64,000 nucleotides of DNA from Hydrogenophaga pseudoflava NBRC 102511 (lineage in GTDB: Bacteria > Pseudomonadota > Gammaproteobacteria > Burkholderiales > Burkholderiaceae_C): positions 62,001 through 126,000 of the forward strand of contig NZ_BCWQ01000003.1 in the NCBI RefSeq assembly GCF_001592285.1, read 5' to 3'. Numbering within the stretch: position 1 is the stretch's first letter; every line of letters begins with the position of its first letter. This document shows positions 5,703-27,733 of the stretch, one piece after another. The translations under genes were made by a program, and so were the position numbers. The notes under the pieces are model-generated. The model was not told where the DNA came from. It ran no database searches and worked only from the letters and a program-made list of their open reading frames with translations.

Positions 5703-5989
5703 TTAATGTGTTCATGATTTATTGAGGCGAAGTTTTTGGGTCGTTTCAGATACATAACTTTCAGGATTCGCGTGTCTTGATTTGCCATTGCATCCAATCC
5801 TGACATTACCGTTCTCTTGGGCGCAGTCCATAGCATGGCAAGCAACACTAAGCTGGCGAACAGACTCTGGTAGAGATGCCTTGAACTTCCGCTTCTGTTC
5901 GATAGTGGCTGTATCTATCTTCATCTTTGAATAGATACTCCCGCTGCGTTTTGGTCAGTCGCACCCAGAGCGGGTGCTTAACGTCAGTC
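5703..5989. other. Right flank of the AT-rich island; no intact gene
   Basis: 287 bases of mixed composition. Two short minus-strand open frames, 5712-5924 and one ending at 5848, look like decayed coding sequence (for example HPLWVRLTKTQREYLF near 5930-5980) but match no family I know. AT-rich sequence ends at about 5990, where the allophanate hydrolase gene stops. I see no tRNA, terminal inverted repeat or obvious attachment duplication. Confidence 0.35.
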
Positions 5990-7822: not shown

Positions 7823-7849
7823 GGGTGGGCTCCGCTGATTCGGTTCTGT

Positions 7850-10800: not shown

Positions 10801-11476
10801 GCTCGCCCAGCGCGAGCACCGTGCCCGCGCCGTCGCCGAACACCTGCACCTCGATGTGGCGCGCCTGCTCGACGTACTTTTCCAGGAAGAGTCCAGCGTC
10901 CTTGAAGTTGGCGCTGGCCAGGCGCTGCACGGATGCGAACGCGTCGCTGAGTTCGTCTTCGCTCCACACCAGGCGCATGCCGATGCCGCCGCCGCCGGCC
11001 GTGCTCTTGAGCATGACCGGGTAGCCGATGCGCAGCGCCTCGGCGCGGGCCTGAGCCGCGTCGGCCAGCAGGCCGGTGCCGGGCAGCAGCGGCACGCCGC
11101 GCTGTTCGGCCAGGTTCCGCGCCGTGTGCTTGAGGCCGAAGGCGCGCATCTGCTCGGGCGTAGGGCCAATGAAGGCGATGCCCGCGTCTTCGCAGGCCTG
11201 GGCAAAGCCCGGGTTCTCGGACAGGAAGCCGTAGCCGGGGTGGATGGCCTCGGCACCGCACTCGCGGGCGATCTGCAGGATGCGCTCGGCCTTGAGGTAG
11301 CTCTCGGCCGCGGGCGCGGGGCCGAGCAGGTAGGCCTCGTCGGCCTCGCGCACATGGCGGGCCTGCGCGTCGGCTTCGGAATACACGGCCACGCTCTGCA
11401 CACCCAGGGCTTTGAGCGTGCGGATGATGCGGCAGGCGATGGCGCCGCGGTTGGCGATCAGGACCTTGCGGAACAT
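7850..11476 (-). CDS. Guanidine carboxylase (urea carboxylase family)
   Basis: A 1208-residue biotin-dependent carboxylase. Residues 1 to about 450 are biotin carboxylase ([18 protein letters not shown] start, [13 protein letters not shown] loop, [10 protein letters not shown]). The central part comprises KipA/KipI-like carboxyltransferase domains ([15 protein letters not shown] onward). The C-terminus is a biotinyl domain whose ESMKMEFS lysine carries biotin about 40 residues from the end. Annotated in databases as urea carboxylase, but the guanidine-I riboswitch, the DUF1989 deiminase pair and the allophanate hydrolase show that guanidine is the likely substrate, giving carboxyguanidine. 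GGAGA precedes the ATG. Enzyme family certain; guanidine preference is inference from context. Confidence 0.93.
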
Positions 11477-11489
11477 GGGCTCTCCGGTG

Positions 11490-11533
11490 GCAGGCCGTCC
11501 TGCCGAGGGGTGTCGCGCAGCAGGCCGTCCTGC
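11490..11533 (-). repeat. Two identical 14-base hairpin repeats in the operon
   Basis: GCAGGCCGTCCTGC occurs at 11490-11503 and again at 11520-11533, exactly 30 bases apart. Each copy can fold as a GCAGG/CCTGC stem with a four-base loop. They fill most of the 79-base gap between the second deiminase subunit gene and the carboxylase gene, the largest gap in the operon. A role in transcript processing or stability is possible but unproven. Confidence 0.6.
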
Positions 11534-11555
11534 TGGCCGGTGGCAAGGAAGGGGG

Positions 11556-12224
11556 TCAGGCCGGGTCCCAGACGATCAGCTGGATCGGCGTGGGGTTGTA
11601 GGCGTTGCAGGGGTTGTTGAGCTGCGGGCAGTTGCTGATCAGCACCCACAGGTCCATCTCGGCGCGCATCTCCACGTACTTGCCGGGGCCGGACACGCCG
11701 TCGTCGAACTTCAGCCCGCCTTCGCCGGTCACCGGCACGTTCATGAAGAAGTTGATGTTGGGCACCAGGTCGCGCTTGGTGAGGCCCATGTCGGCGCGCT
11801 GCAGGGCGATGAGGTAGTTGTCGCGGCAGCTGTGCATGAACTTCTTCTGCAGCGCGTAGCGCACGGTGTTGCTCTCGGCTGCGCATGCACCCCCCAGCGT
11901 GTCGTGCCGGCCGCAGGTGTCGGCCACGATCGTGAGCATGGGCCGCGCCTCGTTGCTGCGGATCACCGAGCCGGTGGTCAGGTAGATGCCGCCCTGGTGC
12001 AGCATGGTGTCGGTGGCGCTGTAGTGCTCGGCCAGGTCGTCGCGGTTGTAGAAGATCACGTCGGCGGCCTGGTTGCCTTCGAGGTCGACGATGCGCAGGG
12101 TCTGGCCCTGGTTGACGGCGAACAGGATGGGCTCGCCCGCGGGGTGGCGCTGGTTCATCACGGCGGTGGCCGGGTCGAGCGCGCTTTCCTGGATGCGGAT
12201 GTCGGTGGCGGTGATGGCGTTCAT
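11556..12224 (-). CDS. Carboxyguanidine deiminase subunit (UAAP2, DUF1989)
   Basis: A 222-residue DUF1989 protein, formerly called urea amidolyase-associated protein 2. Family features: [47 protein letters not shown] with clustered Cys/His able to bind metal, and [13 protein letters not shown]. Published work assigns the UAAP1/UAAP2 pair to a heteromeric carboxyguanidine deiminase (CgdAB) that converts carboxyguanidine to allophanate plus ammonia. GAGGAG precedes the ATG. It sits between the partner subunit and the carboxylase in the riboswitch-1 operon, exactly where the pathway needs it. Subunit letter left unassigned. Confidence 0.9.
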
Positions 12225-12240
12225 GTCGTCGTCTCCTCGC

Positions 12241-13095
12241 TCACAGGTAGAGCATGTCGCTGTTGTGCAGCGCGCGCGCGTTCTCTGGGCGGAAGGCGCG
12301 GCAGGCGTCGTTGGCCGGCGCGGCGCCGCAGCGCCAGGCCAGCAGGCCGACCTTCTTGGGCGACCATTCGGTGGACGGGTCCAGCGGGTGCGGCGCGCTG
12401 GAGACCGCGACGATCACGTCCATGTCGAAGCGCAGCTCGACGAAGTCGCCCGCGCGGCTGTGGTCCTTCGCGAAATGGAAGCGGCCCTGTTCGTCGACGC
12501 TGACCTTGCTGAACAGGTTGACCGGCGCCACGAGGTCGCGCTTGGTCAGGCCGTACTTGCCGATCTCGATCAGCAGCCCGTCCTTGCCCGAGCGGTGCAT
12601 GGCGTTGCGCGCCTTTTCGTAGGGCAGCGCGCCGTACTTCGCGTCCATCAGCTCGTTGTCCAGCAGCGCGCCCAGCGGGTCGTGCCAGCCCAGGCTGTCG
12701 GCGGTGACGCTGGCCATGCTGCGGCCCATGTCGCTCATCAGCACATGGCCCTTGCCGTAGTGCGCGGTGTGCTGCGCCTTGAGGCTGTCGGGCATGTTGT
12801 AGCGCTCCAGCTTTTCCAGCGCGGAGTACATGACCACGCTCACGTTGGCGCCGGCTTCCAGCGCCACGAAGCGGATCGCGCTGCCGCGCGGCATGCGCCA
12901 GCCCCAGTGGCTGCCGCCGGGCATCGCCTCGCTCCACATCGCGTGGCCGGTGTGCACGCCCGCCAGCGCCGCTTGCGGGAAGCGCTGCCACAGCGCGGGC
13001 GCGTCCACCGGCATGGCGGCCGGCGGGTTGGAGGGGATCACGCTCAGCGGGTCGGTGAGCGTCTCGGGCAGGGGGTAGGTGTTGGTGGGTGTCAT
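12241..13095 (-). CDS. Carboxyguanidine deiminase partner subunit (UAAP1, DUF1989)
   Basis: A 284-residue DUF1989 protein, paralogous to the next gene. It contains GSAIRFVALEAGANVSVVMYS, HYGKGHVLMSDMGRSMASVT, DSLGWHDPLGALLDN, NLFSKVSVDEQG and DFVELRFDMDVIVAVSSAPHPLD, all typical of UAAP1. Together with the 222-residue subunit it should form the carboxyguanidine deiminase feeding allophanate hydrolase. Its ATG overlaps the ABC ATPase stop by four bases, so it is translated as part of the transporter-enzyme operon. Confidence 0.9.
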   Translation of the reverse strand: MTPTNTYPLPETLTDPLSVIPSNPPAAMPVDAPALWQRFPQAALAGVHTGHAMWSEAMPGGSHWGWRMPRGSAIRFVALEAGANVSVVMYSALEKLERYNMPDSLKAQHTAHYGKGHVLMSDMGRSMASVTADSLGWHDPLGALLDNELMDAKYGALPYEKARNAMHRSGKDGLLIEIGKYGLTKRDLVAPVNLFSKVSVDEQGRFHFAKDHSRAGDFVELRFDMDVIVAVSSAPHPLDPSTEWSPKKVGLLAWRCGAAPANDACRAFRPENARALHNSDMLYL

Positions 13096-13952
13096 ACGGT
13101 CTCCGCGGTCAGGCCACTGAGGCGCTGCAGTTGTTCAAGGTCAGTCTTCATGCCCGAGGTTTCCCGGATTCGTTCGAGGATCTCGCGCTTGAGGCGCAGG
13201 AACTCGGGCGCGTGCTTGAGGTCCTGGTCGCGCTGGTCGCCGAAGGGCACGTCGTAGACGGTGTCGATGCGGCCCGGGCGCGGCGCCATCAGCACCACGC
13301 GGCCGCCGAGGTAGATGGCTTCTTCCACGTCGTGGGTGACAAAGACGATGGTCGCGCGCTCCAGCCGGTGCACGTGGCGGATCAGGTCGTGCATCACCTC
13401 GCGCGTCTGCGCGTCCAGCGCGCCGAAGGGCTCGTCCATCAGCAGGATGCCGGGCCGGCCCATCAGCGCGCGCGCGATCGCCACGCGCTGCTGCATGCCG
13501 CCCGAGAGCTGGTTGGGCCAGGCGTTGGCCGAGGCCTGCAGGCCCATCAGGCGCAGCAGCGCGTCGGCCCGGCCCGAGGCCGCCTCGACCTGGGCCGAGG
13601 TGTGGTCCTTGCGGTGCGCGGCGAGCTGGCGGCAGAACTTGATGTTCTCCATCACCGACATCCAGGGGTAGAGGCTGTAGTGCTGGAACACCATGGCGCG
13701 GTCGATGTCGGGGCCGGTGACGGGCCGGCCGTCCACCAGCAGCTCGCCGCTGGTGTGCGTTTCCAGCCCGCCGATGGTGCGCAGCAGCGTGCTCTTGCCG
13801 CAGCCCGATGCGCCGACGAAGGTGACGAACTCGTTGTGCGCGATGTCGAGATTGATGTGCTCCAGTGCGTTCAGCGGCGCGCCGTCGAAGCGCTTGTGCA
13901 GGTCGCGGATCTGGATCTTGGGGACCAGGGGGTTGAAGGCGGGAAAGCGCAT
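13092..13952 (-). CDS. ABC transporter ATPase, NitT/TauT type (guanidine uptake)
   Basis: A 286-residue ATP-binding subunit starting MRFPAFNPLVPKIQIRDLHK. Walker A GASGCGKST at 47-55, a Q-loop in VFQHYSLYPW, signature LSGGMQQR, Walker B ILLMDEPFGALD and the switch His in VFVTHDVEEA are all intact. Sequence type is that of nitrate/taurine/aliphatic sulfonate importers. It is five bases downstream of the permease and overlaps UAAP1. No binding-protein gene is present in this operon; the one at 26356-27396 under a second guanidine riboswitch is the likely partner. A longer open frame upstream is ruled out because it runs through the permease gene in another frame. Confidence 0.92.
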   Translation of the reverse strand: MRFPAFNPLVPKIQIRDLHKRFDGAPLNALEHINLDIAHNEFVTFVGASGCGKSTLLRTIGGLETHTSGELLVDGRPVTGPDIDRAMVFQHYSLYPWMSVMENIKFCRQLAAHRKDHTSAQVEAASGRADALLRLMGLQASANAWPNQLSGGMQQRVAIARALMGRPGILLMDEPFGALDAQTREVMHDLIRHVHRLERATIVFVTHDVEEAIYLGGRVVLMAPRPGRIDTVYDVPFGDQRDQDLKHAPEFLRLKREILERIRETSGMKTDLEQLQRLSGLTAETV

Positions 13953-13957
13953 GGCGG

Positions 13958-14836
13958 TCAGCCTTTCAGGTAGAGCCAGGGGAACGCCTTGCGGTGGGCG
14001 AGGCGGAACAGCTGGTCCGTGGCCAGGCCGATGAGGCCGATGACGATGATTCCCGCGAAGATGGTGTCGGTCTGCAGGAAGCGCTGCGCGCGCAGGATGG
14101 CGTAGCCCAGGCCCGAGTTGGCCGCCACCAGCTCGGCCACCACCAGGTAGGTCCAGGCCCAGCCCATCGTGATGCGCAGCGTGTCCAGCAGCGCGGGCTT
14201 GGCGCTGGGCAGGATGACTTTTTCGATCAGCTCGCTGCGGGTCGCGCCCATGGTCTGCGCGGCCTCGACCTGCGCGGCCGGCACACGCCGCACGTCCTCG
14301 GCCACCATCAGCACCATCTGGAAAAAGGTGCCGATGAAGATGATGGCGATCTTGGAGCCCTCGTCGATGCCCACCCACAGCATCACCAGCGGAATGAAGG
14401 CCACTGCCGGCATGTAGCGGATGAAGTCGGTCAGCGGCTCCAGCAGCGCCTGCACCGAGCGGAACGAGCCGATGAACAGGCCCAGCGGCAGGGCAATCAC
14501 CGCCGACAGCAGAAAGCCCGCGACCACGCGGTAGGTGCTGATCGCCATGTCGTTGAGCAGGTCGTTCTCGGTCAGCCACACCCAGAACTTGCCCAGCACC
14601 GCCGCGGGCGAGGGCATGAAGGTCGGGTCCAGCCCGCCCCAGGCGGCCAGCGCGGCCCAGGCCAGCAGCGGCAGCACGAGGCCGGAGAGCGCGAGCACCC
14701 AGTAGGCGCGGCGGTTGATGGGCGCGCGCACCGTCCAGAGCGAGGACAGCGGGCGGCGCGCTGGCGGTGGCGCGGGCACCGCAGACGCCGTGGCCGGCGG
14801 CACCAGCAACGGCAGCGAAGGGGGAGACGTGGACAT
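13958..14836 (-). CDS. ABC transporter permease, NitT/TauT type
   Basis: A 292-residue inner-membrane permease with about six hydrophobic segments and the EAA-type cytoplasmic loop (VEAAQTMGATRSELIEKVILPSA) that contacts the ATPase. A Pro/Ala-rich N-terminus of about 30 residues precedes the first membrane segment. AGGAG lies just upstream of the ATG at 14836. It is the first gene after guanidine-I riboswitch 1 and so the first step (uptake) of the guanidine pathway. Substrate inferred from the riboswitch and downstream enzymes. Confidence 0.9.
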   Translation of the reverse strand: MSTSPPSLPLLVPPATASAVPAPPPARRPLSSLWTVRAPINRRAYWVLALSGLVLPLLAWAALAAWGGLDPTFMPSPAAVLGKFWVWLTENDLLNDMAISTYRVVAGFLLSAVIALPLGLFIGSFRSVQALLEPLTDFIRYMPAVAFIPLVMLWVGIDEGSKIAIIFIGTFFQMVLMVAEDVRRVPAAQVEAAQTMGATRSELIEKVILPSAKPALLDTLRITMGWAWTYLVVAELVAANSGLGYAILRAQRFLQTDTIFAGIIVIGLIGLATDQLFRLAHRKAFPWLYLKG

Positions 14837-14904: not shown

Positions 14905-15023
14905 TTCTCCCGGGCTTTTGTCCCTCCGTGGAGCCACACGATCGTGGCCGACCGCTCTCGGACCAGGCGGCGCTGCGGACTACATATATATGTGTCGGTG
15001 TGCAGCGCCCGGAACCCTAGCGG
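14905..15023 (-). promoter_or_regulatory. Guanidine-I (ykkC) riboswitch 1
   Basis: Read on the minus strand, all three hallmark conserved segments of the ykkC/guanidine-I aptamer are present in order: CTAGGGTTCCG at 15020-15010, CTGGTCCGAGAGCGG at 14966-14952, and GGGACAAAAGCCCGGGAGA at 14924-14906. An AT-rich hairpin loop (ACATATATATGT) sits between the first two. The aptamer ends about 70 bases before the permease ATG. Guanidine-I riboswitches turn expression on when guanidine is bound. I could not see a clear intrinsic terminator in the expression platform, so the mechanism (transcription or translation) is undecided. Confidence 0.93.
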
Positions 15024-15291
15024 TCATTCAAGGCTGCGACGTGGGATACACGACGCCTCTCTGGCCAGAGACTAAGCAAGTTAGATGCCAGAAAAAAACA
15101 GGCCCTACAAGGTGCTCTGCACCAAGTAGGGGCACACACGTTTGATGTACGGCCTGCTCAAGAAGACTCCGATTGTGTTAGACCGCCGATAAACCTGATT
15201 TCGCGTGTTGCTCGCAGAGCTGCTTTCTGTGCTCATTGCTTAACAACATGGACTACCATCCCTTCTCATATCAAGCCATTGGAGCCGAAAA
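15024..15291. other. Intergenic region between riboswitch 1 and the DUF4365-like gene
   Basis: 268 bases that should hold the divergent promoters of the guanidine operon (minus strand) and the nuclease-like gene (plus strand). Composition falls toward AT-rich from about 15150. GGAG at 15281-15284 stands seven bases before the downstream ATG. No convincing sigma-70 pair, repeat or RNA was identified. Confidence 0.4.
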
Positions 15292-16839
15292 ATGAGAGAC
15301 CTTGGTCAGATGGGAGAGAGCACCTTCAGACTTTGGTGCAACCAAGCAGGTCTTGTTGCAAATGATTCGAAGATCGATAGAACTGGTTGGGACTACCTTG
15401 TTGAATTCTCAATACCAACAAAAACCACTCCGACAACGCTTCATCACCCTGCAATAGAGTGCAAGGTTCAAGTCAAAGCCACTGACAATAATTCTAGAAA
15501 AATATCAATAACGCTATCCAATCTTCGGCGCCTCGCTACGGCCCAGATGCCGACCTTTGTAATAGTGATCGAATTTGACAAGAAGGAGGTAGCACAACGA
15601 GCCTTTTTAGTACATATTGACGAGAAAATGATTACAAAGATCCTTCGGCGATTGCATGAACGAGAAACTATTCAAGAGTTATTCGATCATCACAAAAGCT
15701 CAATGCAAATTAGCTATGGCGAAGAAAACGAAATCCCATACCTCAACGGCGAATCACTCAAAGCAGGCATAGAACGATTCATTCCCAACGGAATGAGCGC
15801 ATACGTAGCCGACAAAAATAAGCATCTCGCATCGACGGGCTTTGAAAAAGGATACGCCCACATACGATTTAGCACTGATGGCGAGCAGGGGGCCATTGAT
15901 CTAATTGACGTATCCATAGGGCTAAAGCAGTCTACAAAAATATCAAATTTCACAGGCTTTCATTCAAGATTCGGCATTACAAGCAAGAAGCCTATATTCG
16001 AGAGCGACTCCGGAATCCTGGAGATGCCGGACATAAAACCAACGACAATCGGGACAATCTGCTTTAGAGAATCAAAGCTTTTGCCGGGACTGGTTTTCCC
16101 ATGCAAGGTCTATTCGTCACCCTTAAATCTGGCAGTCCCAAGAAAACTAGAAAAATTCCGCATCGATGGCGAACACTTCGATATCAGCATGAATCCCCAT
16201 ACGGGCGCTGCCCAATATCGATTCAAAACAGACGAAAATACTGAACTGCCCATCACGCAACTCAGGGACGTCATTCGGCTAATGCGGCTAATGACCACCT
16301 CCGGCAAAAAAGTTCTTGTCAGCATTTTCTTAGATGGGGCAGATAAGGTCGAATTTTCATTCGACTCACCAAAGCAGGATTTCGAATTCTCGGAACTACT
16401 GGATGCTCTTGAGTCATCAGTAAAGATATGCCAACAGTTTGACCTAGGCCAACCAATAAAGGCCTCCCTAAAGAACATTGGAGGCAATGGAAAATCAATT
16501 ATTAATTTTTGTGCAATATTCGATACCAAACAGCCTGTTTTCCGATGTGACTTTTCAGTGCAAGGCGACGGATTTGACGAAAATAAGCCTGTCGCATGCA
16601 TTAACCTAGTATCCATAAACATCGGAGATCATGTTTTGGGCGCACTTGTTGTTACGAAGGGCCGCGCACTCTCTTTGGAGCCCAATCGCTATTCACTAAT
16701 ATCGAGCACCGCCGAAATAAAGCTGAAAATCACCTCGGACGAGCGAGGAACAATAAACAAAGATGACCTAATTGAAGCAGTCAAGACCATCGAAGCCGAC
16801 TACCTAAATAATTTCCAAGTCATCACGTTGCCGATCTAG
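15292..16839 (+). CDS. DUF4365-like nuclease-domain protein, orphan defence candidate
   Basis: A 515-residue, AT-rich gene unlike its GC-rich neighbours, suggesting recent transfer. The N-terminal 110 residues resemble DUF4365/PD-(D/E)XK nucleases: Glu9, a GWDYLVEF strand with Asp34, then ECKVQVK at 56-62 (candidate E/Q-x-K catalytic lysines), followed by SITLSNLRRL. The remaining 400 residues are beta-rich, with no transmembrane segment and no family I recognise; they may form a sensor. It is a single gene, divergent from guanidine operon 1, with no methylase or partner nearby. A defence role is an inference from domain type and composition. The nuclease assignment is moderate. Confidence 0.6.
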   Translation: MRDLGQMGESTFRLWCNQAGLVANDSKIDRTGWDYLVEFSIPTKTTPTTLHHPAIECKVQVKATDNNSRKISITLSNLRRLATAQMPTFVIVIEFDKKEVAQRAFLVHIDEKMITKILRRLHERETIQELFDHHKSSMQISYGEENEIPYLNGESLKAGIERFIPNGMSAYVADKNKHLASTGFEKGYAHIRFSTDGEQGAIDLIDVSIGLKQSTKISNFTGFHSRFGITSKKPIFESDSGILEMPDIKPTTIGTICFRESKLLPGLVFPCKVYSSPLNLAVPRKLEKFRIDGEHFDISMNPHTGAAQYRFKTDENTELPITQLRDVIRLMRLMTTSGKKVLVSIFLDGADKVEFSFDSPKQDFEFSELLDALESSVKICQQFDLGQPIKASLKNIGGNGKSIINFCAIFDTKQPVFRCDFSVQGDGFDENKPVACINLVSINIGDHVLGALVVTKGRALSLEPNRYSLISSTAEIKLKITSDERGTINKDDLIEAVKTIEADYLNNFQVITLPI

Positions 16840-19949: not shown

Positions 19950-20717
19950 CTATGACCCGGGCGGGCGGTCCAGGTAGGCCCGCACCAGTTCCTTGAGCCG
20001 ATCGCGCCCGAAGCTCGGGTCGTGGCCGGCGTGCACCACGTTCACCGGCAGGCCGAGCAGGCGTTCCATGGTGCGCGCGTAGGCCGCGCGGTCGGAGTGC
20101 GGCAGGGCGTCGAGCAGCGGGCCGTCGTAGACCGCATCGCCGGAAAACAGCGTGCCGGTGGCCGCCTCCCACAGGCCGATGCTGCCGGGCGAGTGGCCGG
20201 GCAGGTGCAGCACCTCGAAGTGGCGGTTGCCCAGGTCGATGACGTCGCCGTCTTCGAGCTCGCGCGTGACGGTGGCCTGTTTGATCTCCCAGGCCGAGAG
20301 GTCGTAGTCCGGCCGGGGCAGCGCGGTGAGCGCGGCGCCGCCGGTTTCGTAACCGGGCGCCGCGAAGTCCAGGTGCTGGAGGTCGATGTCGCCCAGCGTG
20401 TAGGCCGGGTCGGCGCCGCGCAGGCCGGGCGCTTCGAGCCGGTGGCACCAGCACTCGGCGAATTCGTGGTGGCCGCCCACGTGGTCCAGGTGCACGTGCG
20501 TGGCGAGTGCCGCGACGCGATGGCCGAACAGGTGGCGCGAGGCCTGGTAGAGGCTGCTCACGCCCAGGCCGGTGTCGACCACGAGGTCGATGTCGCGGCC
20601 GCGGATGTGCCAGATGTTGCAGCGGAGCAGCGGCACGACGTGGGGCTCGGTGATCAGCGTGAGGCCGTCGCCGAGGGAACGGAATTCAAACCAGTCGCCC
20701 TCGAGGGTGGGGAGCAT
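19950..20717 (-). CDS. Metallo-beta-lactamase fold hydrolase
   Basis: A 255-residue MBL-fold enzyme. The metal motif THVHLDHVGGH gives His74, His76, Asp78 and His79; further ligands lie in HLPGHSPGSIG and LFSGDAVYDG, with a C-terminal HAGHDPSFG. The sequence type is that of glyoxalase II/quorum-lactonase relatives; the substrate is unknown. It follows the 209-residue unknown gene by 27 bases in riboswitch operon 2. A role hydrolysing an ester, thioester or lactam intermediate is possible (inference). Confidence 0.85.
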   Translation of the reverse strand: MLPTLEGDWFEFRSLGDGLTLITEPHVVPLLRCNIWHIRGRDIDLVVDTGLGVSSLYQASRHLFGHRVAALATHVHLDHVGGHHEFAECWCHRLEAPGLRGADPAYTLGDIDLQHLDFAAPGYETGGAALTALPRPDYDLSAWEIKQATVTRELEDGDVIDLGNRHFEVLHLPGHSPGSIGLWEAATGTLFSGDAVYDGPLLDALPHSDRAAYARTMERLLGLPVNVVHAGHDPSFGRDRLKELVRAYLDRPPGS

Positions 20718-20744
20718 CGTGGGCCTGTGGTGGTGGCGACCAGT

Positions 20745-21374
20745 CTAGGCCGGCGCTTCGCTGAACACCAGCTCGAAGTCGAGCAACGCATCGGCTGCGG
20801 CCGGGTGGCGCTGCACCAGTTCGGCCAGGGTTTCGTCGGGCCGCAGGTCGGCCGGCCAGGCGGCGCGGCGTGGGCGCACGGTGAGGGTGTATCGGCCGGC
20901 CGTGAAGCGCATCGCGCCGGTGGGCTGGCCCTGGCCATCCACCTCGGCCTGCGCGGCATGGGGGCCGGTGGAGCCGGGCAGGCGCTCCCACACCTCCAGG
21001 TAGCGGCCGTGCACGCCGGTCTCGATCACGCGCTCGCTGGTCTCGAACACCATGTACCCCGCGTCGGGCGTGCTGCGCGGCGGCTGCACGTCCCAGTGGC
21101 GGTGCCAGGTGCAGATGTCGGGCTGGCCATTCACACCATGCGTGATGCGCGTGAGGCCGCAGAAGCCCTGCAGCAACGCGCGGCCGGCGGACGTCGCTGG
21201 GTCGATGCCCGCGGGCACGCGCAGGTCGGCGTGCCAGCCCTCGGTCTGCAGCCAGTGCACCTGCGTGGTGGTGTCGCGGCCCTCCGGCGTTTCCAGCAGG
21301 GTGCGTTGCCAGACGCCGCGGTAGGCGGCGGGCACGGGTTCGTCGGGTGCGGGCAGGTCGATCCAGTGGGTCAT
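20745..21374 (-). CDS. Unrecognised 209-residue protein of guanidine operon 2
   Basis: A 209-residue soluble protein beginning MTHWIDLPAPDEPVPAAYRG. It shows GVWQRTLLET, a THVHW-like TTQVHWLQTEGWHADLRVP strand, GFCGLTRIT and GYMVFETSERVIETG, suggesting a beta-barrel (lipocalin-like or HRI1-like) ligand-binding fold. I do not recognise a family with certainty and see no catalytic motif. Start at 21374, five bases after the isochorismatase-like gene's stop. Co-transcription with a creatininase and two hydrolases suggests a binding or enzymatic role in the same pathway. Confidence 0.7.
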   Translation of the reverse strand: MTHWIDLPAPDEPVPAAYRGVWQRTLLETPEGRDTTTQVHWLQTEGWHADLRVPAGIDPATSAGRALLQGFCGLTRITHGVNGQPDICTWHRHWDVQPPRSTPDAGYMVFETSERVIETGVHGRYLEVWERLPGSTGPHAAQAEVDGQGQPTGAMRFTAGRYTLTVRPRRAAWPADLRPDETLAELVQRHPAAADALLDFELVFSEAPA

Positions 21375-21378
21375 GGGT

Positions 21379-22056
21379 TCACGCCGCTTCCCGGTTCGCG
21401 CGCGGCAGCGCGTTGAGCGCGGCCGCGGCCTCGGCCGTGCTGCAGACGCCGCCGAAGATGCCGCCCTCGACACCGATCATGGCCAGGGCCGGGGCCTGCA
21501 GCTCGGGCTGGCTGGCGGCGGTGGCGTCGCCCACGGTGGTGCAGACAAAGCCGCGGTCGATGGCTTCGCGCAGGGTGGAGTGCACGCACACCTCGGTGGT
21601 GACGCCGCACAGCAGCAGGCGGCGGACGCCGAAGGCGCCGAGCAGCGCGCCCAGCGTGGTCTTGTGGAAGGCGCCGTAGCCGGGCTTGTCGATCACGTGT
21701 TCGCAGGCCAGCGGGCGCAGCTCGGGCACGAAGTCGTGGCCCTGTTCGCCGCGCACCAGCAACCGGCCCAGGGGCCCGGGGCCGCCGATGCGCGCCCCGG
21801 CCGCCACACTGCGCGCGAGCTTGGCCGGCGGGCAGTCCGAGAGGTCGGGCAGGTGGCCTTCGCGCGTGTGGAAGATGTGCAGACCGGCGCCGCGCGCGGC
21901 CACCAGCAGCGCCTTCACCTGGCCCACCACGGCCTGCATGCGAGAGATGTCCAGACCGGCCTGTTGCGCGTAACCGCCGGGGCTGCAGAAGTCGCGCTGC
22001 ATGTCGATGACGATCAGCGCGGTGGCCTGGGGGTCGAGGTCTTGCAGGTTGGTCAT
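21379..22056 (-). CDS. Isochorismatase-like cysteine hydrolase
   Basis: A 225-residue isochorismatase-like hydrolase with an intact Asp18 (IVIDMQRDF), Lys124 (VIDKPGYGAFHKT) and Cys157 (GVTTEVCVHST) triad, so an amide-type hydrolase rather than true isochorismatase. This superfamily includes biuret hydrolase, ureidoacrylate hydrolase and guanylurea hydrolase. Its ATG overlaps the creatininase stop by four bases. Being in a guanidine-riboswitch operon, an acyl- or carbamoyl-guanidine type substrate is an attractive but unproven idea. Confidence 0.85.
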   Translation of the reverse strand: MTNLQDLDPQATALIVIDMQRDFCSPGGYAQQAGLDISRMQAVVGQVKALLVAARGAGLHIFHTREGHLPDLSDCPPAKLARSVAAGARIGGPGPLGRLLVRGEQGHDFVPELRPLACEHVIDKPGYGAFHKTTLGALLGAFGVRRLLLCGVTTEVCVHSTLREAIDRGFVCTTVGDATAASQPELQAPALAMIGVEGGIFGGVCSTAEAAAALNALPRANREAA

Positions 22057-22838
22057 GGTCGGGTGAATCCGGTGGTGATGGCCTCGGCCATGCGGCGCGC
22101 GACCTCGTCGGCCAGCAGCTTGCCCTTGGCGGCGTCGGAACCTTTGGCCGACGACAGCACGCCCGAGGGCGGCACCCAGTCGGTGCGACTGGGATACATG
22201 TCGTAGGGCGGGAAGTCGGCCGGCCCGTCGTCGGGCAGCAGGTCCATGCGCACCAGGCTGGGGTGGTGGTGCAGCATCATGGACGTCTCCAGCACGGCCG
22301 CGTGTTCGAGCGCGAAGCCGGGGAAGCCGTCGGGGAACACGTCGCCCAGGGTCTCGGGCGTCATGAAGTCCCAGTACTCCAGCCGCATCACCTGCAGCGC
22401 ACAGGCCGGGTCGGCCGCTTTGGCGTCGCGCAGGCCAAGGTCGATGCCTTCGATCAGGAACCACTGGTTTTCGTAGTGGCCGTTGACGACGACGAGCTTG
22501 TCGACGCCATGGCGCGCGAACTCGCGCACCGCGTCGCGGATCTGGCCGATGAGGGTGGCGGCGTCGACGCTGGTGGTGCCGCAGAAGTGCTGGCCGCCGC
22601 CGCACTTGGGCTGCGACTTGTAGCCGTAGCTCAGCGTGGGCGCGACCAGACCGCCCACGCGCGCGGCCGTGTCGGCCGCGACGGCGCTGGCCAGCAGGCC
22701 GTCGGTGCCCAGCGGCAGGTGCGGGCCGTGCTGCTCCAGCGCGCCCACCGGCAGCAGCACGGGCGGGTGCCCGGCGCGGATGCGCTGCTGGTAGTCGACC
22801 CAGGAGAGCTGGTTCATCCAGACGGTGGTGGTGTTCAT
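22053..22838 (-). CDS. Creatininase (creatinine amidohydrolase)
   Basis: A 261-residue enzyme very close to Pseudomonas creatininase in length and motif order: LPVGALEQHGPH, YGYKSQPKCGGGQHFCGTTS, VVVNGHYENQWFLIEGIDL, YWDF and ADFPPYDMYPSRT. All metal ligands are present with a constant +1 offset from the Pseudomonas putida numbering as I recall it: Glu35, His37, Asp46, His121, Glu123. The enzyme interconverts creatinine and creatine, or opens a similar cyclic guanidine. The ATG overlaps the EamA stop (ATGA) and the stop overlaps the next gene. A creatinase gene is not in the window. It links the operon to guanidino compounds, matching its riboswitch. Confidence 0.9.
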   Translation of the reverse strand: MNTTTVWMNQLSWVDYQQRIRAGHPPVLLPVGALEQHGPHLPLGTDGLLASAVAADTAARVGGLVAPTLSYGYKSQPKCGGGQHFCGTTSVDAATLIGQIRDAVREFARHGVDKLVVVNGHYENQWFLIEGIDLGLRDAKAADPACALQVMRLEYWDFMTPETLGDVFPDGFPGFALEHAAVLETSMMLHHHPSLVRMDLLPDDGPADFPPYDMYPSRTDWVPPSGVLSSAKGSDAAKGKLLADEVARRMAEAITTGFTRP

Positions 22839-23779
22839 GGCGTGCGGGGGCCGGTGGCGGCGATGGGGTGGGAGGGTGTCTCGGTCATGGTCGGTTCGGC
22901 GGGCGGGAACAGGGCCTCGGCCAGCGCCGCGAAGGTGATCAGCGCGCCGCCGGCCCAGCCCATGGGGCTCAGGCTTTCGCCACCGAATGCAATGGCCGTG
23001 CCCACCGAGACCAGCAGCTCGGCCAGCAGGATCACGCCGGCGCGGCTGCTCTCCAGGTGGCTCACGCCGTACTGCCAGGTCACGGTGGCCAGCAGCATCC
23101 AGCCGAAGCCGTAGGCCAGCAGCGCCAGCCACAGCCACGCACCGATGACGGGCAGCTCGCGCCCCGTGACCGCGGTGGCGATGCCCGAGAGCAGGCCGCA
23201 GCCGACGAAGACGGCGAAGGTCTTGGTGCGCAGCGGCACGCGGTGCGCGGCGCGCGCGATCACGTTGTTGGCGGCGAAGGCGAAGCCGGCCGAGAGCGAG
23301 AGCGCGTCGACCCAGGTGAAGGCCAGCGCCTCGCCGCCGATGCCCGGCCCGCCGAGCACCAGCCACAGCCCGACGACCGCACCGGCCACCGCGGCCCAGC
23401 GCGCGGGCGGGATGCGTTCCTTCAGGAACAGCCAGCCGCCCAGCACCGACCACACCGGCGAGAGGTAGAACAGGAACATCACCCGCGCCACGTCGCCCAG
23501 CATCACCGCGTTCACGAACGAGGTGTTGGCCCAGCCGCCGACCAGCGTGAGCGCGAGCACCAGGCCCCACTGGGCGCGCCAGGCGGTGCGGTCGCGCCAG
23601 AGCACGACCAGCGCCAGCAGCCCCACCGAGCCGTAGGTGAGCAGCGAGACCAGCGGGCCGGGCAGGCCCTGCGCGATGAAGCCTTTGAGCGGCATCCAGG
23701 TCAGGCCCCAGAGCGTGGCCGAGAACAGCAGCACGGCGGTGGCAACGCGGTCGGTGGGGTGGGCGGGCAGCAGGGTCAT
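22835..23779 (-). CDS. EamA/DMT-family transporter
   Basis: A 314-residue inner-membrane protein with ten hydrophobic segments arranged as two five-helix EamA repeats (LLFSATLWGLTWMPLKGF; LSLSAGFAFAANNVIARAA). DMT proteins move small metabolites; the related SMR-type guanidine exporters are shorter (about 110 residues), so this is not one of them. In a guanidine-riboswitch operon it may export or import a guanidino compound or a pathway product. The start at 23779 was chosen because upstream residues belong to the preceding SDR in another frame; no clear ribosome binding site is seen. Confidence 0.87.
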   Translation of the reverse strand: MTLLPAHPTDRVATAVLLFSATLWGLTWMPLKGFIAQGLPGPLVSLLTYGSVGLLALVVLWRDRTAWRAQWGLVLALTLVGGWANTSFVNAVMLGDVARVMFLFYLSPVWSVLGGWLFLKERIPPARWAAVAGAVVGLWLVLGGPGIGGEALAFTWVDALSLSAGFAFAANNVIARAAHRVPLRTKTFAVFVGCGLLSGIATAVTGRELPVIGAWLWLALLAYGFGWMLLATVTWQYGVSHLESSRAGVILLAELLVSVGTAIAFGGESLSPMGWAGGALITFAALAEALFPPAEPTMTETPSHPIAATGPRTP

Positions 23780-23789
23780 GGGGGAGGGT

Positions 23790-24551
23790 TCAGGGCATCG
23801 CCGAGCCGCCGTTGGGGCCCAGCACCTGCCCGGTGTAGAAGCGTGAGAGGTCACTGGCGAGGAAGAGCACGCTGTCGGCGATCTCCTCCGGTGCACCGAG
23901 CCGGTGCTGCGGGATCGCCAGCTCTTTCTCCACCCACTCGGCGCTCATGTGTTCGAGCGAGACCATGGCGGTGGCCACCGGGCCGGGCGCCACCGCGTTG
24001 GCGCGGATGTGCTGCGGCGCGAACTCGCGCGCCAGCGATTTGGTGAGGCCGATCACGCCGGCCTTGGCAGCGCAATACGGCGCGTAGCGCTCGCGGCCCA
24101 GGATGCCGAGATCGGACGCGATGTTGACGATGGCGCCCTGGCCCTTTGAAAGCATGCCGGGGATGACCGCACGGCAGACCAGGAACACGGCCTTGAGGTC
24201 CACCGCCAGCATCCGGTCCCAGTCGGCCTCGGTGGTCTCCAGAAAGGGCTTCTCCTGAATGATGCCGGCGTTGTTCACCAGCACGTCCACGGCGCCCACG
24301 GCGTCGGCCATGCGCTGCACCGGGGCGGCGTCGCTCACGTCGGCCTCGACGGCCTGCGCATGGCCGCCGGCCAAGACGATCTCGCGCACCACGGCGTCGG
24401 CCGCGTCCACCTGCCCGAGGTGGTTGACCCACACGAACGCACCCGCCTGCGCCAGGCGCAGTGCGCAGGCGCGGCCGATGCCGGTGGCCGCACCGGTGAC
24501 CAGGGCCGTGCGGCCCTGCAACGACATCGTGGGGAGCGTCGAGACCGTCAC
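23790..24551 (-). CDS. SDR-family oxidoreductase (operon 2, second)
   Basis: A 253-residue short-chain dehydrogenase from a GTG at 24551 (GTGA overlap with the preceding SDR stop; GAGGTG upstream). ATG at 24527 is the alternative. Cofactor loop TGAATGIG, NNAG, active-site Ser in NIASDLGIL and YCAAK (Tyr-x-x-x-Lys) are intact, with the C-terminal GQVLGPNGGSAMP typical of FabG-like enzymes. It probably oxidises or reduces a hydroxyl intermediate produced by the upstream hydroxylase-like protein (inference). Confidence 0.88.
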   Translation of the reverse strand: MTVSTLPTMSLQGRTALVTGAATGIGRACALRLAQAGAFVWVNHLGQVDAADAVVREIVLAGGHAQAVEADVSDAAPVQRMADAVGAVDVLVNNAGIIQEKPFLETTEADWDRMLAVDLKAVFLVCRAVIPGMLSKGQGAIVNIASDLGILGRERYAPYCAAKAGVIGLTKSLAREFAPQHIRANAVAPGPVATAMVSLEHMSAEWVEKELAIPQHRLGAPEEIADSVLFLASDLSRFYTGQVLGPNGGSAMP

Positions 24552-25333
24552 AGCATCACCTCGCCGTGGCTGGGACACAGGCACTGGCCGGTGAGCGCCG
24601 CCGACCCGTCGCTGGCCAGGAAGAGAAAACTGCCGGCCAGATCGTCCGGCGTGAGCATGACCGGCACGGCCTGGCGCGACAGGATCTCGCGTTCCACCTC
24701 GGCTTCGCTGCAGCCCCGCTCCAGTGCCATGGCCGCGAGCGATCGCATGGCGGCGTCTGTGCGCACCCAGCCGGGGCAGACCGCGTTGACGCGGATGCCG
24801 CGCGGGCCCAGTTCCAGCGCCAGCGAGCGCGTGAGGCCGACGATGGCGTGCTTGCTGGCGCTGTAGGCCGAGAAGCCGGCCACGCCGATGCGGCCCCAGA
24901 TGGACGACTGGTGGATCACGCTGGCGCCGCGCGGCAACACTGGCAACAGCGCGCGCGTGAGCCGCCACATGCCGCTGACGTTGTTGTCCAGCAGCGCGGC
25001 CCAGCGGGCGTTGGCGTCGTCGGCACCGTCGTCGACGGGCGTCGGGTATTCGGTGCCGGCGTTGTGGACCAGCACGTCGAGCCGGCCGAAGCATTCCGCC
25101 ACCTGCGCGGCGACGGCGGCCACCGCGGCATCGCTGCCCAGCTCGCACACCGCGCTGTGCACCTGGTGGCTGTGCAGGGATTCGACCAGCGCGTCCAGCG
25201 GCGCGGCCTCGCGGTCCAGCAGCAGCAACCGGGCGCCCTGTGCGAGGAAGGCCCGCGCCAGCGCCTGGCCGATGCCGCCGGCCGCGCCGGTGATGAGCAC
25301 GGTGCGGCCTTCCAGGCCGTAACGGACCGTCAT
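24548..25333 (-). CDS. SDR-family oxidoreductase (operon 2, first)
   Basis: A 261-residue short-chain dehydrogenase. Cofactor motif TGAAGGIG, HNAG (in place of NNAG), catalytic Ser in HQSSIWGRIG and YSASK are present; CPGWVRTD follows. Its ATG overlaps the stop of the desaturase-like gene (ATGA). It is only a distant paralogue of the next SDR, so the two are not a simple recent duplication. It probably acts on a different step of the same pathway. Confidence 0.88.
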   Translation of the reverse strand: MTVRYGLEGRTVLITGAAGGIGQALARAFLAQGARLLLLDREAAPLDALVESLHSHQVHSAVCELGSDAAVAAVAAQVAECFGRLDVLVHNAGTEYPTPVDDGADDANARWAALLDNNVSGMWRLTRALLPVLPRGASVIHQSSIWGRIGVAGFSAYSASKHAIVGLTRSLALELGPRGIRVNAVCPGWVRTDAAMRSLAAMALERGCSEAEVEREILSRQAVPVMLTPDDLAGSFLFLASDGSAALTGQCLCPSHGEVML

Positions 25334-26340
25334 ACCGCGGTGAGGAAAGACACGCCCACGGCGCCGATGAAGCCGTCGGCCCGGCCCGGCGTGCCGGGTG
25401 GCAGCACCTGGCCGTAGTCCTTGGCCAGCACGCGCGTGACGCGGTGGCGGTGGTAGGCGCGCAGCAGCTCGCCCACGGTCACCACCTGCGGGCTCTTGTC
25501 GGCATACAGCTGCTGGTGCAGCGCGGGCAGCTGGTACCAGGGCGCGACGGGACGTTCGTGGTGCGCGTTGTGGAAGCCGAAGTTCAGCCACACCAGGTTG
25601 AGCCACTTGGCGTCCATACCCACCACGTCGCTGTAGGTGTTGGCCTGCTCGTAGGCGCGGTCGCGCACCTTGTCCTGCGGAATCGGCTTGTCGTCCAGGA
25701 TGGGGTAGGCGTCGTAGGTGTGCTGAAAACAGTCGGCAAAGCGCAGCAGGTGCACGAACAGCAGGTAGGCCAGTGCGTACAGCGCCAGCGCCTTGAGCGA
25801 CCACCATCCGAGCAGCACCCAGGCGGTCAGCCGCACCACGGCCACGCCGAGGATGCGGCCGCGCGCCGCCTTCTTGCGCTCGTCCATGAAGGGCAGGGCG
25901 ACCACGAAGCCGCGCATCACGAACTCCACCGCCGGGATGTGCAGCCACTCCAGCGCCAGCACCACGCGCCGTACCAGCGGGTGCGCGCGCAGGAAGGCCT
26001 GGTGATCGAAGGTGATGACATCGGCACGCTCGACGTGGTGGCGCATGTGCTTGCGGCGCAGGTCGTCGAAGCTGGCGTAGGCGCTGCCGTTGATCCAGCT
26101 CATGGCCACGCCCCAGCGCTCGTTGGCCTGCGGCGTGCGGAAGATGGCCTGGTGGGCGAACTCGTGGATGAAGTAGGCCGACCAGGTGAGGGTGAGCGCG
26201 ACCAGCAGCACGCCGGTGGCATTCAGCCACCAGGCGCTCTGGCCGAGCATCCAGATGCCGGCGGGCCAGCCCAGCACGGTCACCGCGAGGGCGAGCGTGT
26301 TGGGCAGCGCGCCGTCGGCGTGCCGGTACAGGGCGGGCAT
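25330..26340 (-). CDS. Membrane di-iron desaturase/hydroxylase-like protein
   Basis: A 336-residue integral membrane protein of the fatty acid desaturase superfamily. Three His boxes are clear: HEFAH at 59-63, HMRHH at 98-102 and HNAHH at 257-261, with hydrophobic helices at about 16-55 and 165-205. The superfamily also contains alkane, xylene and amine hydroxylases. Placement after the binding-protein gene in a guanidine-riboswitch operon, before two SDRs and a creatininase, argues against a lipid substrate and for hydroxylation of a guanidino compound (inference). No electron-transfer partner gene is in the operon. Confidence 0.87.
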   Translation of the reverse strand: MPALYRHADGALPNTLALAVTVLGWPAGIWMLGQSAWWLNATGVLLVALTLTWSAYFIHEFAHQAIFRTPQANERWGVAMSWINGSAYASFDDLRRKHMRHHVERADVITFDHQAFLRAHPLVRRVVLALEWLHIPAVEFVMRGFVVALPFMDERKKAARGRILGVAVVRLTAWVLLGWWSLKALALYALAYLLFVHLLRFADCFQHTYDAYPILDDKPIPQDKVRDRAYEQANTYSDVVGMDAKWLNLVWLNFGFHNAHHERPVAPWYQLPALHQQLYADKSPQVVTVGELLRAYHRHRVTRVLAKDYGQVLPPGTPGRADGFIGAVGVSFLTAV

Positions 26341-26355
26341 GACGCGCCTCGTGCC

Positions 26356-27396
26356 TTACTTGGCCAGGGCCTTGACCAGCGAAGCGTCGAAGGTCGCCTC
26401 GGTGGCCGGGATGGCGCTGATCTGGCCCTTGGCCTTGAGCAGCTGGCCGATCACCTCGCCGCTGGCGTAGTAGGAGGTGGTTTCCTTGGCCGGCAGGAAG
26501 GCCTTGGGCATCTCGGCCAGCGGGATGTTGTACACGCCGCTCATCTGTTCCTTGGCTTCCTTGGCCGAGACACCCATGAACTTGCCGATGATCTTGGCGG
26601 CCTCGTCGGGCTTGGCCTTCATGTAGGCCATGCCGTCGAGGTAGGCCTTGATGAGACCGGTGATCTCGGCCGGCTTGGCCTTGATGACCTTGTCGTCGAA
26701 CACCAGCACGTCGGCGATCAGGCCGGGCGCGTCCTTGGACGAGAACACCACCTTGAACTTTTTGCCGCCGCCCTGGCCCAGCACCTGCGACAGGCTGGGC
26801 TCGTAGGTCACGCCGATGGGCAGCTGGCCCGAGGCCATCGCGGCGGGCACGGCTTCGGGCGTCATGCTGACGGGGCTGATGTCCTTCTCGCCCAGGCCGT
26901 TGATCTTGAGCGCGTAGGACAGCAGGAAGTCGCTCGGCGAGAGCGGGTTGTAGCCCACCTTCTTGCCCTTGAAGTCCTTGACCGACTGGATGGACGCGTC
27001 GGCCACGATGGCGTCGCCGCCGTTGGAGTAGTCGATGGGCATGACCACCTTCATGGCCTTGCCGGCCGCCACCTGGCCGACCACCTGGTCGTAGGTCAGC
27101 ATGCCGCCGTCGACCGCGCCGGACGCGATGGCGGGCGGGATCAGCGCCGGGTCGGTGAAGACCTGCAGCGAGACCTTGAGGTTGTACTTCTTGAACAGGT
27201 CCAGCGACTCGGCCACGTAGAACGGGCCGTAGCCGATCCACACCACGGTGGCGATCTTCATGTTGGTGGGGGCGGCCATCGCGGCGGCCGTGGCCAGCGA
27301 GAGCGCCACGCCCAGCGCGGGCTTGAACAGCCGGCCGAGCAGGGACGACGAAGGGGTGGACGCTGCGGGAGAGGAGAAGAGACCAGCCAGTTTCAT
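26356..27396 (-). CDS. ABC transporter substrate-binding protein, NMT1/NitT-TauT type
   Basis: A 346-residue periplasmic binding protein. The N-terminus has a signal peptide (LGVALSLATAAAMAA, cleavage near AMA-AP), then MKIATVVWIGYGPFYVAESLDLF, typical of the NMT1/SsuA fold, and a hinge region GAVDGGMLTYDQVVGQVAAG. The start at 27396 has GGAG six bases upstream; ATG 27408 would add four residues. First gene after guanidine-I riboswitch 2. No permease or ATPase follows, while riboswitch operon 1 has both and no binding protein, so they probably form one importer. Confidence 0.9.
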   Translation of the reverse strand: MKLAGLFSSPAASTPSSSLLGRLFKPALGVALSLATAAAMAAPTNMKIATVVWIGYGPFYVAESLDLFKKYNLKVSLQVFTDPALIPPAIASGAVDGGMLTYDQVVGQVAAGKAMKVVMPIDYSNGGDAIVADASIQSVKDFKGKKVGYNPLSPSDFLLSYALKINGLGEKDISPVSMTPEAVPAAMASGQLPIGVTYEPSLSQVLGQGGGKKFKVVFSSKDAPGLIADVLVFDDKVIKAKPAEITGLIKAYLDGMAYMKAKPDEAAKIIGKFMGVSAKEAKEQMSGVYNIPLAEMPKAFLPAKETTSYYASGEVIGQLLKAKGQISAIPATEATFDASLVKALAK

Positions 27397-27445
27397 GTGA
27401 AGCTCCATGTGGTGTGGGACGGGCGCAGGAGAGACGATCTGATGT

Positions 27446-27540
27446 CGTTCTCCCGGGCTTTTGTCCCTCCGTGGAGCCTGCGATGAGGCCGGCCCACTCT
27501 CGGACCAGACCCTGCGCTGCCGCAGACGGAACCCTAGTGG
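27446..27540 (-). promoter_or_regulatory. Guanidine-I (ykkC) riboswitch 2
   Basis: On the minus strand the same conserved blocks occur as in riboswitch 1: CTAGGGTTCCG at 27537-27527, CTGGTCCGAGAG at 27508-27497 and GGGACAAAAGCCCGGGAGA at 27467-27449. The peripheral stems differ from copy 1 and the whole aptamer is more compact (about 95 rather than 119 bases), so this is not a recent exact duplication. The aptamer ends about 50 bases upstream of the binding-protein ATG. It places the desaturase-SDR-creatininase operon under guanidine control. Confidence 0.93.
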
Positions 27541-27733
27541 ACCTACGCACGAGCCGCTGCAACCACCGGTCACAGACCGCTCATCCATGCTGATACCCCC
27601 CAATGCATGGAGCGTGCCAGGGTTGGCGGGGCCTTTGAACGCGCACGACGCACCAAAGCGCGACAGAAACCGGTCGGCGCGGGCCACTCATGAACAGACT
27701 TGGTGCGCCGGACCCTGGCGCACCGGGTGGCGC
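27541..27733. other. Intergenic region upstream of riboswitch 2
   Basis: About 190 bases between the riboswitch and the end of the UbiB-type gene. It should contain the promoter of operon 2 reading leftward. I see no unambiguous -35/-10 pair and no terminator hairpin for the UbiB-type gene. Confidence 0.35.

Follow-up and report, generated by a model that had tools for sequence, protein, structure and literature searches.

Gene content of the operon

We analysed 64,000 nucleotides of DNA from Hydrogenophaga pseudoflava NBRC 102511 (contig NZ_BCWQ01000003.1, positions 62,001 to 126,000), a stretch that is called the window here and whose own numbering is used for its coordinates. Within the window a guanidine-I riboswitch aptamer stands ahead of nine genes on the minus strand. 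We refer to this gene run as operon 2, and to a second guanidine-switched gene set of the same window, which holds the predicted guanidine carboxylase pathway, as operon 1. From 5′ to 3′, the features of operon 2 are:

27448–27548, minus strand: guanidine-I riboswitch aptamer heading operon 2 (Rfam RF00442, 83.2 bits against a gathering threshold of 63, E 2.4e-13)
26356–27396, minus strand: SBP, periplasmic substrate-binding protein of the NMT1/SsuA type (PF09084, E 1.3e-25)
25330–26340, minus strand: FADS, membrane di-iron desaturase/hydroxylase-type enzyme, proposed N-alkylguanidine hydroxylase (PF00487, E 2e-32)
24548–25333, minus strand: SDR1, short-chain dehydrogenase (SDR; PF13561, E 1.4e-52)
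23790–24551, minus strand: SDR2, short-chain dehydrogenase with a GTG start (PF13561, E 8.3e-60)
22835–23779, minus strand: EamA-family transporter (PF00892, two stretches)
22053–22838, minus strand: CRN, creatininase-family amidohydrolase with an altered pocket (TIGR04448, 358 bits, cut-off 235)
21379–22056, minus strand: ISO, isochorismatase-like cysteine hydrolase, guanylurea-hydrolase-like (PF00857)
20745–21374, minus strand: UNK, MgdL-family protein, proposed N-(hydroxyalkyl)guanidine lyase (34% identity to MgdL)
19950–20717, minus strand: MBL, metallo-beta-lactamase-fold hydrolase (PF00753)

The Rfam score bears out a preliminary description of this DNA, made from its letters alone, which had placed a guanidine-I aptamer before a nine-gene minus-strand run. 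Pfam also agrees with the names it had given to eight of the genes (NMT1, FA_desaturase, two SDRs, EamA, Creatininase, Isochorismatase and Lactamase_B). Its statement that most junctions overlap by four bases applies to four of the eight, the junctions from 5′ to 3′ measuring +15, −4, −4, +10, −4, −4, +4 and +27 bases. The aptamer is on the same strand as SBP and ends 51 nucleotides before its start. All eight NCBIfam matches of SBP were under their cut-offs, and scans for consensus promoters and terminators between 19000 and 28000 gave no excess over shuffled sequences.

An MgdL homologue and a putative membrane oxygenase

The product of the eighth gene, UNK, had been entered as an unknown protein and matches nothing in Pfam or NCBIfam at E ≤ 0.001; homology now places it in the family of MgdL, an N-(hydroxymethyl)guanidine lyase described in 2025 in which D49 and R51 are essential by mutation (PMC12508155). 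UNK of the window is 34% identical to MgdL over 161 amino acids (E 6e-20, the subject set being small), and a profile built from an alignment of 31 UNK copies picked for diversity scores MgdL at 151 bits. The comparison is with MgdL itself because in one of the loci collected, L137, the gene-specific part of each of the four published mgdH/mgdL primers is found, and from this sequence match we take L137 to be mgdH-mgdL. MgdL in L137 reads D49-I-R51; D50 and R52 of UNK match this pair, which is invariant in 31/31 rows of the alignment (numbering checked on L137 and L135). By sequence, UNK is a homologue of MgdL, and lyase activity is predicted for it. An AlphaFold2 model of UNK is mostly beta (pLDDT 97.4). 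Its fold search returned weak lipocalin-like barrels only (best 4qrl, E 3.2e-3, TM 0.36 over the query), and a profile search found no solved relative of UNK. The Pfam family HRI1 (PF16815) is matched at E ≤ 1 by 16 of the 31 aligned members, at best with 3.1e-6, though neither by UNK of the window nor by MgdL.

Searched with the same alignment, the UNK family was found in 7 of 369 class genomes and 14 of 398 phylum genomes, the source genus included. Twelve of the UNK-family loci collected (L132–L137 and L155–L160) are without FADS, and ten of these have an MgdH-like 2-oxoglutarate dioxygenase. Two of them, L133 and L135, are ordered as ATP-binding cassette (ABC) transporter genes, CgdB, CgdA, carboxylase, dioxygenase and UNK relative, and mgdH-mgdL of Vreelandella boliviensis has this same layout (PMC12508155). 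Elsewhere in the family, an MgdL-family gene is accompanied in L136 (8805–10384) by a second, more distant dioxygenase, and another in L157 (5254–10430) by a pair of MgdH-like genes and a pair of SBP-like genes; these arrangements suggest further guanidine substrates.

By its PF00487 match and three histidine boxes, FADS is a member of the membrane di-iron desaturase/hydroxylase family; the box residues (H59/H63, H98/H101/H102 and H257/H260/H261) are invariant in the 18 sequences chosen for comparison. To our knowledge, the hydroxylation of N-alkylguanidines has been assigned to 2-oxoglutarate dioxygenases only, and Pfam finds no domain of that kind among the nine operon 2 proteins. When loci of about 3–21 kb were compared, with MgdH-like proteins called at E ≤ 1e-20, some genomes represented twice and L137 left out, nine had an MgdH-like protein, 112 had FADS and none had both. 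Since FADS and the MgdH-like proteins share a lyase family as their partner, both accompany guanidine carboxylase genes, and no locus compared has the two of them, FADS probably does the MgdH step, that is, hydroxylation of the carbon on a guanidine nitrogen. The structure model of FADS is fair (pLDDT 78); its best fold match in the PDB (E 4.3e-3, TM 0.60) is a chain that is not named by its title, and a sequence search for a solved relative returned a single chance match (E 0.48).

Conservation and spread

Two overlapping sets of relatives were used. The genus set comprises 67 genomes, the source genome included, of which 32 have FADS, and 20 longer loci of about 19 kb were taken from these 32. 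The named loci, the best 80 of 86 relatives, came from a pattern-based scan of one genome collection; their titles place all of them in the Burkholderiales or among unplaced Betaproteobacteria/Pseudomonadota, and many of the genomes are also in the genus set. The nearest relatives carrying named labels are Hydrogenophaga, the FADS of H. flava being 96% identical. All 20 same-genus loci keep SBP-FADS-SDR2-EamA-CRN-ISO-UNK in order, with SDR1 as well in 19, and because the same order recurs in this way the operon 2 gene set is more than a chance neighbourhood. A trypsin-like gene at 19939–19133, considered as a further member, was rejected, as it adjoins the operon in only two of these 20 loci.

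The riboswitch is shared equally widely. In an Rfam scan of 35 loci, a guanidine-I aptamer lies upstream in all 27 with SBP directly before FADS (14 in the genus, 11 outside it and 2 in a further family of the same class, f161). Eight scanned loci have another layout; the aptamer is present in L050 and L158, and none was found on the available stretch of L048, L132, L135, L155, L156 or L157. The distance from aptamer to SBP start is 48–58 nucleotides in 23 of 26 leaders, the window counted, and 2–40 nucleotides in the other three, whose start codons were picked by script.

FADS also goes with the guanidine degradation protein CgdA. All 32 FADS-positive genomes of the genus have CgdA, compared with 3 of the 35 FADS-negative ones (Fisher p 6e-16, shared ancestry ignored), and in 17 of the 20 longer loci no CgdB/CgdA gene lies on the stretch of about 19 kb. 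Among 14 other genomes with a relative of FADS or UNK, CgdA was found in 13 and not in G232, the genome with the most distant FADS.

Beyond the genus the distribution of FADS is patchy, with 7 of 200 family genomes positive at E ≤ 1e-100 and 11 of 369 class genomes at E ≤ 1e-40, the source genome counted in both. Three genomes of family f161 carry SBP-FADS-(SDR1)-SDR2-EamA-CRN-ISO-(X)-UNK-permease-ATPase as a single run, X being an AiiA-like protein described below, and the aptamer is present in both of the two that were scanned. The gene set has probably been transferred between families. In one locus, L129 (8926–19707), two copies each of FADS and SBP lie within one run.

Gene modules and hydrolases

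FADS and UNK lie on one stretch in 62 of the 80 named loci, and these 62 were used to ask which genes come and go together; of the 18 left out, 16 end short of the UNK position, and L076 and L123 continue without UNK. SDR and CRN genes are both present in 53 of the 62 clusters, both absent in nine and discordant in none, and ISO is absent in six, each of which has CRN. On a FADS tree of the 62, the SDR+CRN state changes about five times (4–7 in bootstraps, two changes being forced by well-supported branches). The sister Aquabacterium loci L088 and L098, for example, differ by SDR2-CRN, and the module of L088 is FADS-ISO-X-UNK. X, an MBL-fold protein found in 45 of the 62 clusters, resembles acyl-homoserine lactone and pyridoxolactone lactonases, and was under the cut-offs of the lactonase families in the four sequences compared with them. 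In the window another MBL protein follows UNK instead of X, as it does in 11 of the 62, and six clusters have neither on the stretch; a 45% identical homologue of the MBL of the window adjoins an mgdH-like gene in L155.

It is plausible that the FADS product has two onward routes, fragmentation by UNK, or oxidation by an SDR followed by hydrolysis by CRN or ISO. The second, through an acylguanidine, is proposed because SDR and CRN genes come and go jointly in 62 of 62 clusters. Tepidimonas L076 has, locally, SBP-FADS-SDR2-CRN only, and this arrangement without a nearby lyase would, if that reading holds, be the second route by itself.

ISO of the window is 56% identical to the guanylurea hydrolase of plasmid pMET-2 (BB_00025) and 47–48% identical to two biuret hydrolases, and it and 17 chosen relatives are all nearer to the guanylurea hydrolase than to both biuret hydrolases. 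Where both biuret hydrolases have Gln, Glu is found in all 18, and where they have Lys, Tyr is found in 17 (Phe in L129); we infer from these alignments that the two differences reflect a guanidinium substrate. BB_00025, the reference for the GuuH type, hydrolyses guanylurea at 11 µmol/min/mg and has very low activity on biuret (PMC9800807). The cysteine hydrolase of pMET-2 (CP098607.1) adjoins a nucleoside deaminase gene, in keeping with its being BB_00025, and ISO shares with it the Glu and the Asp, Lys and Cys positions. We presume that the Asp, Lys and Cys positions have functional roles. Compared with plasmid records, ISO is slightly closer to a Nitrosospira plasmid protein than to the pMET-2 hydrolase. 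By sequence ISO is guanylurea-hydrolase-like, a proven guanylurea hydrolase being its closest characterised counterpart, and activity on guanylurea is predicted. A biuret hydrolase assignment was rejected on the lower identity and on a score of 245 bits with NF050097, under the cut-off of 370. The surroundings on pMET-2 differ from those in the window, the hydrolase there adjoining nucleoside deaminase and ABC genes with no desaturase, SDR or creatininase annotated within 4 kb; at positions 2540–6248 of that locus (L140) the genes for binding protein, nucleoside deaminase, guanylurea hydrolase, permease and ATPase seem to form one run.

CRN resembles the creatininase of Pseudomonas putida (1J2T, 1V7Z), being 48% identical to 1J2T and retaining W154, H178 and, in all 22 operon proteins compared, E34, H36, D45, H120 and E122, which we take to be the metal site. 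It differs from that enzyme in occurring with SDR genes in a guanidine-switched operon and in three changes that are also found in 22/22, S78C, W174F (Y in L129) and D175A, at positions that presumably form the substrate side of the pocket. In view of these steady changes and of the loss of the module from nine of 62 clusters, creatininase was not adopted as our main reading of CRN. Another creatininase-family protein, about 26–29% identical to CRN, is present in the distant guanidine clusters L047, L050, L132 and L155; in L047, L132 and L155 its neighbour is, we assume, glutamine-synthetase-like.

Operon 1, transport and regulation

The genes that would take up the liberated guanidine lie in operon 1, whose features are:

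14905–15031, minus strand: guanidine-I aptamer of operon 1 (RF00442, 87.7 bits)
13092–14836, minus strand: ABC permease and ATPase (NCBIfam matches, all under cut-off)
11556–13095, minus strand: CgdB and CgdA, carboxyguanidine deiminase subunits (TIGR03425, 324 bits; TIGR03424, 335 bits; both above cut-off)
11490–11536, minus strand: guanidine-II aptamer upstream of the carboxylase gene (RF01068, 32.2 bits, gathering threshold 32, marginal)
5990–11476, minus strand: predicted urea/guanidine carboxylase and allophanate hydrolase (TIGR02712, 1901 bits; TIGR02713, 788 bits; both above cut-off)

NCBIfam labels the TIGR03425 and TIGR03424 proteins urea amidolyase associated proteins, and we take them to be CgdB and CgdA. 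The permease gene comes first behind the aptamer, and no gene of operon 1 encodes a binding protein, which is what the first gene of operon 2 encodes. Because operon 1 lacks such a gene and the genome has just one other match to SBP at E ≤ 1e-10 (24% identical), the permease and ATPase of operon 1 probably take their binding protein from operon 2, as far as gene content can tell. Between the two operons, on the plus strand (15292–16839), lies a gene for a 515 amino acid protein with a weak DUF4365 match under cut-off. Elsewhere in the window (1982–5702, plus strand) a run of three genes encodes a UvrD/GajB-like helicase, a DarT-family ADP-ribosyltransferase (PF14487, E 4e-21) and an ADP-ribosylglycohydrolase (PF03747, E 2e-30); by its domains this run resembles a toxin-antitoxin or defence cassette of the DarT type that includes a helicase.

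An Rfam search of the whole 4.5 Mb genome found two guanidine-I aptamers, one for each operon. In V. boliviensis the guanidine-I switch is guanidine-specific, whereas guanidine-II accepts methylguanidine as well (PMC12508155). Both switch classes are present in the window, the guanidine-II aptamer again being upstream of the carboxylase gene, and therefore induction by the product is the natural model: guanidine would bind the operon 2 aptamer and switch the operon on. In folding the leader, GGCUCCA inside the aptamer pairs with GGAG before the SBP start, at a z-score of only −1.44; this would fit translational control, though we do not lean on it as the pairing lies within the aptamer match.

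A proposed pathway and its alternatives

We propose that operon 2 carries out an oxidative N-dealkylation that frees guanidine from N-alkylguanidines, of which methylguanidine is the simplest, for use by operon 1, and we give this reading a probability of roughly two in three. An ABC transporter, with SBP from operon 2 and permease and ATPase from operon 1, would import the substrate or guanidine. FADS would hydroxylate the carbon on a guanidine nitrogen to give an N-(hydroxyalkyl)guanidine hemiaminal, which UNK would fragment to guanidine and an aldehyde. Alternatively, and this is the weakest part of the scheme, the SDRs may oxidise the hemiaminal to an N-acylguanidine such as N-formylguanidine, from which CRN or ISO would release guanidine and an acid. 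In either case the guanidine would enter the carboxylase pathway of operon 1. It is from homology, residue conservation, co-occurrence and riboswitch association that we infer the reactions, the substrate and the second exit. Methylguanidine is the leading single candidate for that substrate, at a little under even odds, and larger or several substrates remain in play. The preliminary description had likewise envisaged an oxidative and hydrolytic breakdown to guanidine that operon 1 then uses, and this part gains from the match of UNK to MgdL, of ISO to guanylurea hydrolase and from CgdA in 32 of 32 genomes; its idea of a larger guanidino compound stays conjectural, the best precedent being methylguanidine, which is small. 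A more specific version of our proposal, namely that membrane di-iron enzymes are N-alkylguanidine hydroxylases and are joined by an exit that avoids the aldehyde, with SDR oxidation to an N-acylguanidine and hydrolysis by a re-purposed creatininase or guanylurea-hydrolase relative, is tentative, with the odds leaning against it.

Several observations count against N-dealkylation by these enzymes. Methylguanidine alone needs just FADS and UNK, which leaves EamA, X or MBL and two SDRs unexplained. The two partners are not always together, as FADS loci with continuing sequence but no UNK exist (L043, L048, L076 and L123), and the UNK family occurs in L132 and L134 with neither FADS nor an MgdH-like oxygenase. 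MgdL itself is narrow in specificity among the substrates tested (PMC12508155), and a relative 34% identical to it may act on another compound. Pfam finds no electron donor such as ferredoxin or rubredoxin among the nine operon 2 proteins, and the fold search gave FADS no solved-structure match at E ≤ 0.001. The SDR/CRN/ISO module rules hold for closer clusters only: ISO and CRN are both absent from L123 and from the distant L044, and in L047 and L050, which are likewise distant, a divergent creatininase-family protein (about 26%) occurs but no SDR. Finally, the co-occurrence counts take no account of shared ancestry.

Operon 2 might instead be a funnel for unrelated guanidino compounds that all end in guanidine as inducer, ISO serving guanylurea, FADS and UNK alkylguanidines, SDR and CRN a cyclic acylguanidine, and X or MBL an ester or lactone. 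The separable modules (FADS-ISO-X-UNK in L088, FADS-SDR2-CRN in L076) and the closeness of ISO to guanylurea hydrolase speak for such a funnel; however, a single compact operon with one switch, whose genes stay together across many genera, is no less compatible with one pathway, and the way SDR and CRN accompany FADS suggests shared intermediates. We see the funnel as having perhaps one chance in a few. A single but larger natural alkylguanidine, for example an arginine-derived or a terpenoid one, whose carbon chain is degraded by the SDRs and a lactonase-like protein, is rather unlikely: two SDRs, and in relatives the AiiA/pyridoxolactonase-like X, suggest more carbon than a methyl group, but the SDR genes are absent from nine of the 62 clusters and Pfam finds no thiolase, acyl-CoA dehydrogenase or CoA ligase among the nine operon 2 proteins.

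A cyclic guanidine had also been suggested, and creatinine would be one. CRN could open creatinine to creatine, whose N–CH2 and N–CH3 bonds FADS and UNK would cut to leave glyoxylate, formaldehyde and guanidine; in a variant, FADS would make 5-hydroxycreatinine (creatol), which is then oxidised and hydrolysed towards methylguanidine. CRN does score above the NCBIfam creatininase cut-off with its metal-site residues kept, and in water with carbon materials and oxygen creatinine gives creatol and N-methylguanidine (PMC3775425). Against this, S78, W174 and D175 of the P. putida enzyme, which presumably lie at the substrate, are changed in each of the 22 operon CRN proteins, and nine of the 62 clusters lack SDR and CRN yet retain FADS, ISO, X and UNK. 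We consider a creatinine pathway improbable, in either form. Least probable by far is that FADS has membrane lipids as its substrate, with the operon serving as a non-catabolic stress response to guanidine. FADS does belong to the fatty acid desaturase family of Pfam, but it is usually accompanied by a protein homologous to a guanidine-hemiaminal lyase, an MgdH-like enzyme replaces it elsewhere, and it goes with CgdA. The N-dealkylation of alkylguanidines remains the reading that we prefer.

Relation to known systems and significance

The closest known system is the methylguanidine demethylase MgdH/MgdL of V. boliviensis, published in October 2025 (PMC12508155). As there, the window links guanidine-I-switched genes with those for guanidine carboxylase, CgdAB, allophanate hydrolase and an ABC transporter, its MgdL-family protein has the same Asp and Arg, and a guanidine-II aptamer precedes the carboxylase gene. 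The window differs in having a membrane di-iron-type FADS as its oxygenase and not a 2-oxoglutarate dioxygenase, in adding two SDRs, CRN, ISO, EamA and MBL, and in placing these in a separate operon with its own aptamer. By analogy operon 2 would work like the MgdH/MgdL system, yet we do not file it as a member. FADS likewise shares the family profile and the three histidine boxes of the AlkB/desaturase-type membrane di-iron enzymes (PF00487), and is set apart from them by its genetic tie to guanidine metabolism and its lack of a close solved structure.

A pathway of this kind has thus been known since 2025. Within the reach of our searches, the exchanged oxygenase, the additional exit and an operon of this size are undescribed. 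No description of operon 2 was recognised among the matches listed in the literature searches, two of which listed 20 of 362 and 20 of 77 matches, and an earlier mention is possible. The operon 2 gene set is larger than the mgdH-mgdL pair, and its patchy occurrence takes in many Burkholderiales genera and one other family of their class. It predicts that a di-iron enzyme hydroxylates alkylguanidines, that the lyase works with a catalytic pair already known, and that a member of the creatininase family hydrolyses acylguanidines. If true, this would be a non-homologous replacement of the key oxygenase of the pathway, and it may explain the real role of the ‘creatininase’ in such operons, with a bearing on how methylguanidine, guanylurea and similar waste compounds are broken down.

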